From: Candidatus Nomurabacteria bacterium | GTDB lineage: Bacteria > Patescibacteriota > Minisyncoccia > Phycocordibacterales > UBA9973 | DNA: 36,351 bases | Assembly (NCBI GenBank): GCA_943356675.1 | Contig: CALRFQ010000008.1 | Location: 1-36,351, forward strand | Reading direction: 5' to 3' | Shown: positions 14,279 to 32,892 of the stretch, piece by piece | Position numbering within the stretch: the first letter of the stretch is position 1 | Layout of the letters: each line of letters opens with the position of its first letter | Notes under the pieces: model-generated | What the model was told of the DNA's origin: nothing | What the model saw: the letters and a program-made list of their open reading frames with translations, nothing else | Databases searched by the model: none | Program-made: the position numbers and the translations under genes

Positions 14279-15697
14279 CTATTTCCACTTATTATATTTC
14301 TCTAAAATCTTAGTTAAAATCTGTAAAACTTTCTTTACATCCCCTGCTTTTGTATCGCGTCCTATAGAGAAGCGAATACTTTCGTCTGTGAATTTTGAAC
14401 CACTCACTTTTCTAATTGCATTTATTACATGAGAGCTTTCTTCTTCATCCGTCTTGCATGCGCTCTTGTTCGACACCGCCACACCGTTTGCATCAAGTTC
14501 AATTACTAGTAGTTCATTTGAAATTCCTGCAACAGAAATATTTACATTATTTGGAATTCTGTTTTCTAAGTCTCCATTGATTTCAATCTTGTAGCCAGTT
14601 TTATTTTCAACATCCTTAATCCCTGTGAAAAATTCTTGTTGAAGCTTTCTTAATCTTTCGGACTCTTTCTCTTTAATTTTGTTTGTCTTCGCAAGTGCTA
14701 GAGCCATGCCTACTGCGCCGGCTACATTCTCTGTGCCAGCACGCAAGTGAAATTCTTGCCCTCCGCCATTTATAACAGGAACAAGCTCCACACTTCTTCT
14801 CTTATATAAAACTCCCATACCTTTCGGTCCGTAAATCTTCGCACCGTTAAAAGATAGTAAATCCACACCTAGTGCATCCATATTCCCAGTCTCCAAATAA
14901 TTCATTGCTTGGCAGGCATCTACATGAAAAAACGGAAAAAATGAATTCCCCGCTTTCGCGGCCTCACCCCCTGCCCCCTCTCCATTTACTTCGTGAATAG
15001 CGAGGGGAGAAATTCGAGATGCAATTGATTGCATTTTTCCCCTCTCTAAATTTGAAAAATTTGGGGAGGGGTTAGGGGTGGGGCGTGATTGTTTCCCAAT
15101 TTTTCTTGCACCTCTTACAACTTTCGCAATTTCTTTTATTGGCTGAATTGTTCCGATTTCATTATTCGCATACATTACGGAAACAAGCACTGTATTTTCT
15201 TTTATCGCTTCTTTGATATTTTTCTGATCTACAATTCCATTTGCTTCTACTCCGACATAAGTCACTTCCGCTCTGCCAGTTCTTTCTAACATCTTGCAAG
15301 TTTCTATCACCGCGGAGTGCTCAATATTCGTCGTTACGATATGTGGAATATTCGGAAGTCCGACTTCCGAATATTTATTTGCTATAAAATTTATAGTGCC
15401 TTCTATAGCAAGTGCGTCGCTTTCTGAACCTGAAGCTGTGAAAATAATTTCATCTGCATGCGCAAAAAGCTCCTTTGCAATATCCTTCCTTGCGTTCTCA
15501 AGAATTCTCCTTGCTTCCACACTTTGCTTGTGTAGCCCGCTCGGATTGGTATAATGCTCTAGGTTCACCTCCTCCATAGCCTTTAATACCCCCTTATCCA
15601 CCGGAGTTGCAGATGCATTATCCATATATATTAGGTTTTTCGGGAAGCCCAATTTCATAAGAACACTATAGCATAAACTGCAACAACATTTTAGCAA
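14279..15697 (-). CDS. Cysteine desulfurase (NifS/IscS family), with an internal low-complexity insertion
   Basis: YMDNASATPVDKGVLKAM, NPSGLHKQS, NIEHSAV, FFHVDACQA, SFNGAKIYGPKGMGVLY. Confidence 0.92.
   Translation of the reverse strand: MLKCCCSLCYSVLMKLGFPKNLIYMDNASATPVDKGVLKAMEEVNLEHYTNPSGLHKQSVEARRILENARKDIAKELFAHADEIIFTASGSESDALAIEGTINFIANKYSEVGLPNIPHIVTTNIEHSAVIETCKMLERTGRAEVTYVGVEANGIVDQKNIKEAIKENTVLVSVMYANNEIGTIQPIKEIAKVVRGARKIGKQSRPTPNPSPNFSNLERGKMQSIASRISPLAIHEVNGEGAGGEAAKAGNSFFPFFHVDACQAMNYLETGNMDALGVDLLSFNGAKIYGPKGMGVLYKRRSVELVPVINGGGQEFHLRAGTENVAGAVGMALALAKTNKIKEKESERLRKLQQEFFTGIKDVENKTGYKIEINGDLENRIPNNVNISVAGISNELLVIELDANGVAVSNKSACKTDEEESSHVINAIRKVSGSKFTDESIRFSIGRDTKAGDVKKVLQILTKILEKYNKWK
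14963..15083. repeat. Palindromic C/G-rich element inserted in frame within the cysteine desulfurase
   Basis: CTCACCCCCTGCCCCCTCTCC ... GGGGAGGGGTTAGGGGTGGGG inverted ends with inner hairpins; encodes RPTPNPSPNFSNLERGK...EGAGGEA. Confidence 0.85.
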
Positions 15698-30536: not shown

Positions 30537-31670
30537 ATGAAAAAAACAGACAACAAAGAAATATTAGAAAATGTCGACAGTATTGTAAGTGAAGCAAAGG
30601 TAGAACTCTCAAGTATCGGCAAAATGCTCGATAAGACAGATCTTCCCCCACAAGCGGAGGCCCTAGTAGAAGGTCCTGTTATTGCTATCATGAAGAGCTC
30701 AGTATATATCGACCTAGCACCATTCGGTACTGGTATCATTTTCGGACGCGAGTTCATGAATGCAAAGGATATCATCAAGAAAGTTTCAATCGGCGACGTT
30801 GTGAAAGCAAAGGTTGTGGAAGCTTCAAACGATGAAGGTTACATAGAGCTCTCACTTAAGGAGGCTAAGCAAGCTCTTATCTGGAGTGAAGCTGAGAAAG
30901 CTATCAAGAACAAGACTGTGCTTGAAATCATGGTTAAGGAAGCAAACAAAGGTGGACTTATCATGGAATGGCAAGGTATCTCAGGATTCCTTCCTGCAAG
31001 TCAACTTAAGAGTGAGCACTACCCTCGCGTAGAAGATTCTGACAAGGATAAAATCTTGAAAGAACTTAAGAAGCTCATCGGTCAACGTATAAACGTAATC
31101 ATGATCTCTGCACTTCCAAAGGAAGGTAAGCTTATCTTCTCTGAGAAAGACAACAATCCCGAAGAGCGTGAAGGTATCATCAGTAAGTACACAGTTGGTG
31201 ATGCAGTCGATGCGACTGTCGCTGGTATCGTAGACTTCGGAGTATTCCTTAAAGTTGAGGAAGGTCTAGAAGGTCTAGTACACATCTCAGAAATTGATTG
31301 GGGCCTAGTGGAAGATCCACGTACAATGTTTAAAGTTGGAGACAAAGTTAAGGCAAAGGTTATTGAAGTGAAAGATGGAAAAATTTCTCTTTCAATCAAG
31401 GCTCTCAAAGAAAATCCATGGAATGAATACGAAGACAAACTAAAGAAGGGCGACATCGTATCTGGAGTAGTTATCAAGTTCAACAAGCACGGCGCTTTGG
31501 TATCTATCAAGCAAGGTGTGGCAGGACTTGTGCACAACTCTTCATTTGGATCTGAAGAAAAGCTAAAGAAAGCTCTTGAACTCGGAAAGACATACAACTT
31601 CCAAGTAACTCTATTCGAGCCAAAGGATCAGCGTATGACTCTCATCCACCTAGACGGCGACAAGAAGTAA
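30537..31670 (+). CDS. rpsA: S1 RNA-binding domain protein (ribosomal protein S1-like)
   Basis: Four S1 repeats, e.g. VAGIVDFGVFLKVEEGLEGLVHISEIDW; KVIEVKDGKISLSIKAL. Confidence 0.88.
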   Translation: MKKTDNKEILENVDSIVSEAKVELSSIGKMLDKTDLPPQAEALVEGPVIAIMKSSVYIDLAPFGTGIIFGREFMNAKDIIKKVSIGDVVKAKVVEASNDEGYIELSLKEAKQALIWSEAEKAIKNKTVLEIMVKEANKGGLIMEWQGISGFLPASQLKSEHYPRVEDSDKDKILKELKKLIGQRINVIMISALPKEGKLIFSEKDNNPEEREGIISKYTVGDAVDATVAGIVDFGVFLKVEEGLEGLVHISEIDWGLVEDPRTMFKVGDKVKAKVIEVKDGKISLSIKALKENPWNEYEDKLKKGDIVSGVVIKFNKHGALVSIKQGVAGLVHNSSFGSEEKLKKALELGKTYNFQVTLFEPKDQRMTLIHLDGDKK

Positions 31671-31702
31671 TTAAACTAATTTCTTCTCCCTTATCTCAAT
31701 TA

Positions 31703-31732
31703 AAAAACTCCCACTCGGGAGTTTTTTAATTT
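31703..31732 (+). terminator. Intrinsic terminator after S1-domain gene
   Basis: AAAAAACTCCCACTCGGGAGTTTTTT. Confidence 0.8.
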
Positions 31733-31757
31733 CTAATTTTAATTATTATAAACAACT

Positions 31758-31783
31758 CATTTTTAGACGGCCGTCTAAAAATG
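31758..31783. repeat. 26-bp perfect palindrome, left end of Cas2/PaaX-like unit
   Basis: CATTTTTAGACGG|CCGTCTAAAAATG. Confidence 0.97.
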
Positions 31784-31807
31784 GTATAGATAAGCACAAA
31801 ATATTTC

Positions 31808-32287
31808 TTATTTATTATTCTGAATTTTGAAAACCTTTACACATTCCTTAATACCTAATAACTTTAAGTGATCTATAAATTCTTTAGGTAGTGGACCATC
31901 CCCTAACCAAGCACTCTGCTGTATCATTTGAAAATTCCATAATTTTAATTGCAATCTAAGCCAATTTCTAACTTTTCTTTGTGTTTCTGGTATATCAAAC
32001 AAAACTAGAACCTTAATGTCTCCGGTCGGTCTAATTTTCATATTTCTAAAAACATGGTGAGATTGTAAAGATATTTTATTGAAAGTTATATTATCTTTAT
32101 CTAGGGCAATTACTCCACTAGCCTTAAGACGATTTAGTGTGTTATTAAAAGATTGACGATTCCTGTTTCTTTTCTTTTGAACTAACTCAAAAAGTATTTG
32201 TCTCTGAATCTTAATTGATTTGCAAGATAAAAGATGACTAATTATAAAATCAGTAAATGAAGCTTCATTTTCCCAACTGTTACTCAT
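31808..32287 (-). CDS. PaaX/Cas2-like protein: N-terminal winged HTH plus Cas2-like ferredoxin-fold C-terminus
   Basis: FNNTLNRLKASGVIALDKDNITF (wHTH) and IKVLVLFDIPETQRKVRNWLRLQLKLWNFQMIQQSAWLGDGPLPKEF (Cas2/PaaX-C-like). Confidence 0.75.
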   Translation of the reverse strand: MSNSWENEASFTDFIISHLLSCKSIKIQRQILFELVQKKRNRNRQSFNNTLNRLKASGVIALDKDNITFNKISLQSHHVFRNMKIRPTGDIKVLVLFDIPETQRKVRNWLRLQLKLWNFQMIQQSAWLGDGPLPKEFIDHLKLLGIKECVKVFKIQNNK

Positions 32288-32300
32288 ATAATAACTATAT

Positions 32301-32326
32301 CATATTTGGACGGCCGTCTAAATATG
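32301..32326. repeat. 26-bp palindrome (one mismatch), right end of Cas2/PaaX-like unit
   Basis: CATATTTGGACGG|CCGTCTAAATATG. Confidence 0.95.
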
Positions 32327-32331
32327 AGTTG

Positions 32332-32892
32332 CTAATTATATAGTGTCATGGCTTTTTCTCGGCCGGAGAGAACGAGAGTGGTAAGGATTTTTGCGACGCG
32401 GGGTGCAAGAATGTCTTTAATAACATTCAAATCCTCTTTAGAGAAATCTCCGAGCACATCAGGCTTCCTAAGTGTGCCAGTCTCGTCGAGTAGTGACACT
32501 CCCACGCGAATACGAGTGAATTCTTTTGAACCAGTAGCTGACATAATACTTTTCACACCGTTGTGCCCACCATCACCTCTATCATAAGAAATCTTGATTG
32601 CACCGATGGGCAAATCAATATCATCGTGAATCACAATAAGGTCTTCAAGTTTTGTACCGTAAGTTTTTTGTAAGTATGAAAGTGTATCACCTGACTTATT
32701 CATAAATGTATGTGGCTTCACAAAAAGTAAATCCGTATTTTCAATCCGAGAGCTGGCAAGATCCGCCGGCACATATTTATTCACTTGCCAACTATCCTTA
32801 TTTATTAGCTCATCTGCAATTATCCAAGCCACATTATGACGAATGTGTTTATATTCATCGCCAATATTTCCTAGAGCTATAATTGTTTTCAT
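32332..32892 (-). CDS. pth: Peptidyl-tRNA hydrolase
   Basis: IALGNIGDEYKHIRHNVAW; KPHTFMNKSGDTL; VIHDDIDLPIGAIKISYDRGDGGHNGVKSI. Confidence 0.95.
   Translation of the reverse strand: MKTIIALGNIGDEYKHIRHNVAWIIADELINKDSWQVNKYVPADLASSRIENTDLLFVKPHTFMNKSGDTLSYLQKTYGTKLEDLIVIHDDIDLPIGAIKISYDRGDGGHNGVKSIMSATGSKEFTRIRVGVSLLDETGTLRKPDVLGDFSKEDLNVIKDILAPRVAKILTTLVLSGREKAMTLYN

Follow-up and report, generated by a model that had tools for sequence, protein, structure and literature searches.

A winged-helix/Cas2-fold gene bracketed by inverted palindromes in Patescibacteria: a candidate REPtron-like system

A chromosomal gene for a protein that joins a winged-helix (wHTH) domain to a Cas2-like fold probably forms, together with the inverted palindromes that bracket it, a REPtron-like system in which the partner of the palindromes is this protein rather than an HUH transposase. 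We give this reading a probability of about 60%, judging from sequence comparisons. What speaks for it in the sequences is the bracket itself, the specificity of the subfamilies, the dispersal of solo palindromes, their in-frame insertion into genes, the empty sites, and arms that stay symmetric even as their sequence changes. As we picture it, the unit would be a wHTH-Cas2-fold gene lying between two inverted, hairpin-forming palindromes (a stem of about 15–17 bp and a 4-nt loop). The protein would recognise its own palindrome, as a cruciform or a single-strand hairpin, through the Cas2-like domain, would take part in copying or inserting the palindrome elsewhere as RAYT does for REPs, and would repress its own gene when bound at the promoter-side palindrome. 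Movement of the whole unit would be rare, and it would mainly be the palindrome alone that spreads, as in REP/RAYT. More tentative, and held at less than even odds, is the stronger proposal that the Cas2-fold protein itself cuts and copies hairpin palindromes, which would make it a new class of non-HUH palindrome-mobilising enzyme across Patescibacteria.

The unit was found in a stretch of 36,351 nucleotides (the window, by which we mean the whole stretch analysed) from a genome of the Patescibacteria, tiny bacteria with reduced genomes. This genome, 719 kb in 25 contigs, is 98% complete and is referred to below as G000; Ca. Nomurabacteria and kin are its nearest named relatives. The unit occupies the 661-bp gap between the stop of an S1-like gene at 31670 and the stop of pth at 32332, in which the gene for the 159-aa protein is the sole gene. 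The features of the region are as follows.

31698–31731, + strand: intrinsic terminator belonging to the S1-like gene; setting of the insertion site, outside the unit
31744–31792, no strand: left arm of a 49-nt inverted repeat (84%, from an inverted-repeat search); outer end of the unit
31758–31783, no strand: stop-side palindrome CATTTTTAGACGGCCGTCTAAAAATG, perfect, 26 bp, read from the sequence
31808–32287, − strand: PaaX_M/Cas2-like gene, wHTH and Cas2 fold, 159 aa (PF20803, E 1.3e-11; Foldseek)
32292–32340, no strand: matching right arm of the same 49-nt repeat (84%), which extends outward as far as the pth stop codon (32332–32334)
32294–32299, − strand: −10-like TATAGT (TGATATAGT) of a putative promoter, between the promoter-side palindrome and the ATG, read from the sequence
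32300–32327, no strand: promoter-side palindrome TCATATTTGGACGGCCGTCTAAATATGA, 28 bp, one mismatched pair, a hairpin or operator candidate, read from the sequence
32332–32892, − strand: pth, right neighbour of the unit

The initial annotation of this DNA had described a lone 159-aa gene between inverted copies of a palindromic end, and this description holds: the two 36-mers it quoted differ at five places, the inverted match reaches 49 nt at 84%, and no second gene lies between the ends. Its figure of 14 bp between the right palindrome and the start codon should read 12 bp before the ATG. The sequence TTTAGACGGCCGTCTAAA, allowing up to three mismatches, occurs at two places in the window, which are the two unit ends, where none would be expected. 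In the whole 719-kb genome there are no further copies of GACGGCCGTC, or of the 20-mer with up to three mismatches, and this lack of solo copies of the window's own palindrome in its genome counts against the REPtron-like reading.

The order of palindrome, TATAAT-like box and ATG recurs upstream of many homologues. With the −10-like box placed between the palindrome and the ATG, the mRNA would be nearly leaderless. Since the upstream palindrome is on the promoter, autorepression through it, which had been put forward as the alternative to mobility, probably applies as well. A role of the hairpin in RNA only was rejected, because the upstream palindrome precedes the −10 box and would thus be absent from the gene's own mRNA; a known RNA family was likewise rejected, none being found in 31600–32500.

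The protein matches PaaX_M (PF20803) in Pfam with an E-value of 1.3e-11, and the same domain was found in 40 of the 40 family members examined; a Pfam search gave no Y1_Tnp match in any of the members examined. The match to Cas2 falls below the curated cut-offs (21.6 against 23.8 in Pfam, 23.1 against 24.5 in NCBIfam). In the AlphaFold model (pLDDT 83.5), a winged-helix-like N-terminal part is followed by a ferredoxin fold, for which Foldseek gives Cas2 3exc as the first match (E 0.013, probability 1.00) and E. coli PaaX 8a39 as the fourth (E 0.022, probability 0.96), the E-values being modest and the probabilities high. A sequence search found no relative with a solved structure. The Cas2/PaaX-like character proposed earlier is thus borne out by Pfam and by the predicted structure. 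Among 40 relatives the invariant columns include Asp98, R107, W109, R111, Q123, S125, W127 and G129, with no HxH among them; the invariant Asp98 lies after the first Cas2-like strand and has a putative nuclease role. Homologues of 122–124 aa that lack the HTH still have palindromes, an indication that the essential partner is the Cas2-like domain.

This protein shares with the PaaX repressor a wHTH followed by a Cas2-like domain (PF20803 is central in PaaX) and a palindrome at its own promoter. Unlike PaaX, it lacks the C-terminal effector-binding domain, the chain ending after the Cas2-like fold with no more Pfam matches, and at 159 aa it is shorter than E. coli PaaX, whose structure has 305 aa; there are no adjoining paa genes, the gene is multicopy, and a palindrome is present at both ends. 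With the Cas2 of CRISPR adaptation it shares the ferredoxin-like fold and the conserved Asp after the first strand, and it differs in its fused wHTH, in scoring below the Cas2 cut-offs, and in the lack of cas1 in the genus. The earlier remark that no cas1 is visible can be extended to all 24 genomes of the genus, none of which has a Cas1 match, and a remnant of CRISPR adaptation was rejected on this ground.

Homologues are present in 29 of the 61 genomes searched, frequently several in each (four in the window's own genome, 12 in G023), and 153 were collected in the genome collection. In a phylum-wide search of 380 genomes, 90 gave a match at E 1e-10. The homologue records belong nearly all to Ca. 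Nomurabacteria, Zambryskibacteria, Campbellbacteria, Taylorbacteria or other Patescibacteria; one is titled Burkholderiales and is probably mis-binned. A phage or plasmid gene was considered and rejected, as IMG/VR, INPHARED and PLSDB gave no match.

The bracket was scored as the best ungapped inverted match between the 100 bp upstream and the 100 bp downstream of a gene, with 13 or more taken as a pass. This inverted match proved the better test, as strict palindrome scoring alone overlooked decayed ends. In a set of 109 homologues, 90% non-redundant and drawn from Ca. Nomurabacteria and relatives, 83 are bracketed by inverted palindromes, as against 0 of 163 neighbouring control genes; the pass rate was 0.6% in shuffles and 3.2% in mixed pairs. 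Of 23 distant homologues taken from other families within the phylum, 15 are bracketed too (120-bp windows). The cores differ between subfamilies (GACGGCCGTC, CTGCAGGTGCAG, CGCTATAGCG, CTGCCATGGCAG and CGATCG), and closely related proteins tend to have similar cores (Mantel rho 0.33, p 0.001), core identity being 0.82 within a gene's own upstream–downstream pair and 0.47 in other pairs. Four homologues of 174–201 aa (L025, L026, L028 and L064) have the upstream palindrome only or none at all; most of them adjoin one conserved gene (at about 202 kb in G004), and they are perhaps domesticated regulators.

The palindromes are longer than their shared cores. Beyond the core, symmetry continues for a mean of 10.3 bp (median 8) at 28 sites, a set that includes the contig-end fold-back artefact L032, whose 58-bp extension is to be ignored, and for a mean of 14.0 bp at 11 sites; the chance expectation is 0.37 bp, and the arm sequence varies from site to site. 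Pairing amounts to 98–100% at offsets 3–4 and to 84–92% at offsets 14–17, which played no part in selecting the palindromes. In the two central pairs, that is, the central four bases, it is just 74% and 66%, a drop that gives the pattern of a hairpin with a 4-nt loop. It is unlikely that a dimer of a 160-aa protein would read so long a duplex. Alternatively, the perfect arms could be maintained by fold-back replication.

Palindromes of the same kind are also found away from the gene. In G004, the 34-bp palindrome before the family gene L060 recurs without a gene at 77507, 275246, 463647 and 687329, each time immediately after a stop codon, with which it overlaps or from which it is separated by no more than 29 bp. 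The core ACTCTGC..GCAGAGT occurs at 30 sites in the genus against one for the reversed-pattern control, and the TTACGCTATAGCGTAA-type core at 13 sites against none; some of these sites flank family genes, and the remainder are solo. The solo sites lie in convergent, tandem or divergent intergenic regions, and some lie within genes. In miaA of G003, G009 and G011, perfect palindromes of 36–42 bp stand in frame (reading TNSAMAEFV and similar); miaA of G001 has an apparently decayed insert, and that of G018, G005, G010, G002 and the window's own genome has none. Another palindrome lies in an RT gene of G020. Solo copies tend to occur where the matching gene is present (Fisher p 0.015 and 0.002, from tables counted by hand, with small counts that depend on genome completeness); it counts against the REPtron-like reading that two genomes, G020 and the incomplete G006, have solo copies with no matching gene detected. 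Copy numbers are low, from 2 to about 10. The murB gene of G008 holds a palindrome of 36 bp built on a TTCCGCTATAGCGTAA core (L166, 1491–1526) at a length unchanged from murB of G004, and this palindrome is a replacement or chance.

The palindromic elements of Rickettsia are in-frame inserts in genes. They and the CGTC REPs resemble the present palindromes in being short and in having in-frame gene inserts; the difference is that here the same palindromes bracket a dedicated protein gene.

Could the protein be a plain autoregulator, a PaaX-type repressor that acts at two flanking operators by looping, with the other palindromes as its regulon? The upstream palindrome on the promoter, the wHTH and the co-variation of core and protein all agree with it, and autorepression at its promoter is reported for E. 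coli PaaX (PMC9493321). Such a repressor, however, fits poorly with solo palindromes that follow stop codons, separate convergent genes or sit within genes in frame, with long arms that are symmetric despite varying sequence, with palindromes kept by homologues that have no HTH, and with family genes that change sites; we consider it unlikely.

Another reading takes the palindromes to be REPs moved by resident RAYT (HUH) transposases, with the PaaX/Cas2-like gene as a passenger or mere binder. RAYT (Y1) genes are indeed present in 19 of the 24 genomes of the genus, palindromes bracket RAYT genes in the same genomes, and it counts against the REPtron-like reading that resident RAYTs could move any hairpin. 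A census of repeated palindromes, however, gave two classes. The odd-centred families, which have other cores, count among their members copies located at RAYT genes of G004 and G017; the even-centred families include copies flanking PaaX/Cas2-like genes in G004 (n=5) and in G005 (n=4 and n=2, the census of G005 covering its two largest relevant contigs). G004 and G005 also have a few small clusters that resemble ordinary terminators. The complete genome G017, in which no PaaX/Cas2-like gene was detected, has six Y1 matches and odd-centred families only, three of them at RAYT genes, and the census found no even-centred family in it. Conversely, G008 has the unit and one further palindrome yet no Y1 match. 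Movement by RAYTs is thus quite improbable as the explanation of the even-centred palindromes.

A RAYT gene at 481432–482754 of G004:C1 has ACATAGGACSGTCCTATGT palindromes near both sides and more solo copies elsewhere, and by its sequence it is a REPtron in a Patescibacteria genome. In the window, a perfect odd-centred palindrome, AATATTCGGAAGTCCGACTTCCGAATATT, lies at 15347–15375 within a cysteine desulfurase ORF (14279–15697). It belongs to the AGTCSGACT family, and since this family is dispersed in G004, the palindrome is probably an in-frame insert of the RAYT-like class. The same ORF has a second in-frame stretch (RPTPNPSPNFSNLERGK...EGAGGE) that resembles an inserted repeat.

To return to the REPtron-like reading, the tnpA-REP gene of a REPtron is mostly single-copy, is not itself mobile, has REPs as neighbours and evolves in step with them (PMC8266576). 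The present system is alike in its stationary gene beside its own palindromes, in the co-evolution of protein and palindrome, and in the solo palindromes of 20–50 bp dispersed in the genome, here in relatives and not for the window's own palindrome. It differs in its Cas2-fold partner without HUH motif or Y1_Tnp match, in its even-centred palindromes and in its low copy numbers. As for the GTAG or CGTC foot of REPs, no tetranucleotide common to the flanks of different subfamilies was seen by eye. The system works like a REPtron; by protein family it is not one, as it has no HUH transposase.

Short palindromic repeats such as REPs and RPEs are common in bacteria, and for most of them we know of no established means of spread. 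CGTC-tagged REPs, a large class that includes some Rickettsia elements, were reported without a dedicated transposase (PMC3733652), so that a partner protein other than an HUH transposase would close a recognised gap. The protein described here would be a testable candidate for such a partner, and there may be a second, unrecognised route by which bacteria spread short palindromic repeats. A non-HUH partner with this fold would hint at one more connection of mobile DNA to the Cas2 fold of CRISPR adaptation, and would account for the peptides inserted in frame into conserved genes of minimal genomes. If the stronger proposal is true, the Cas2-fold enzyme would also serve as a model for the spread of some REP/RPE-type repeats that lack a known transposase. 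We found nothing in the open-access literature that ties Cas2 or PaaX to REPs or to CPR palindromes.

In the genus and its near relatives, family genes are found at about 20 different places on the chromosome, and the protein tree needs 21 site changes, the minimum possible being 19. The sites at 384k and 524k and much of rpsG–fusA are vertically inherited; those at 202k and 691k were entered more than once. G000 and G013 carry a family gene at the S1–pth site, which is empty in the complete sequences G004 (a gap of about 80 bp) and G017 (about 95 bp), the intergenic sequence of the empty sites being too diverged to define junctions. Junctions and target duplications are unreadable because nearly all the genomes are MAGs at species distance. 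It had been argued that a fixed S1–pth locus with no empty sites would speak against mobility; the many sites and the two empty ones answer that objection. No within-genome pair of genes exceeds 76% identity, so gene movement was old or horizontal. From the sequences, the gene copies look old and mostly vertical, and the solo palindromes look recent. A self-contained miniature transposon, in which a Cas2-like transposase moves the gene with its ends and solo palindromes are end remnants, was the earlier proposal, which is right only in part. It has in its favour the inverted ends, the many and empty sites and one truncated copy in the window's own genome, but the unit does not look like a frequent hopper. 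Against it stand the absence of recent within-genome duplicates, vertical persistence at rpsG–fusA and other sites, and near-identical, apparently more recent solo copies, which leaves the self-contained transposon very improbable.

The truncated copy (L049, G000:C5:17466–17828), of 147 aa with an early stop, is a decaying paralogue. Insertion into terminator loops is suggestive at L141, L145 and L146 and is not claimed, because orthologous intergenic regions have unrelated terminators. The rpsG–fusA gap (698.5–700.5 kb of G004:C1 and its orthologues) is a hot spot that holds 9 of the 46 sampled family members, and in G004 itself a GIY-YIG-like ORF stands there in place of the family gene.
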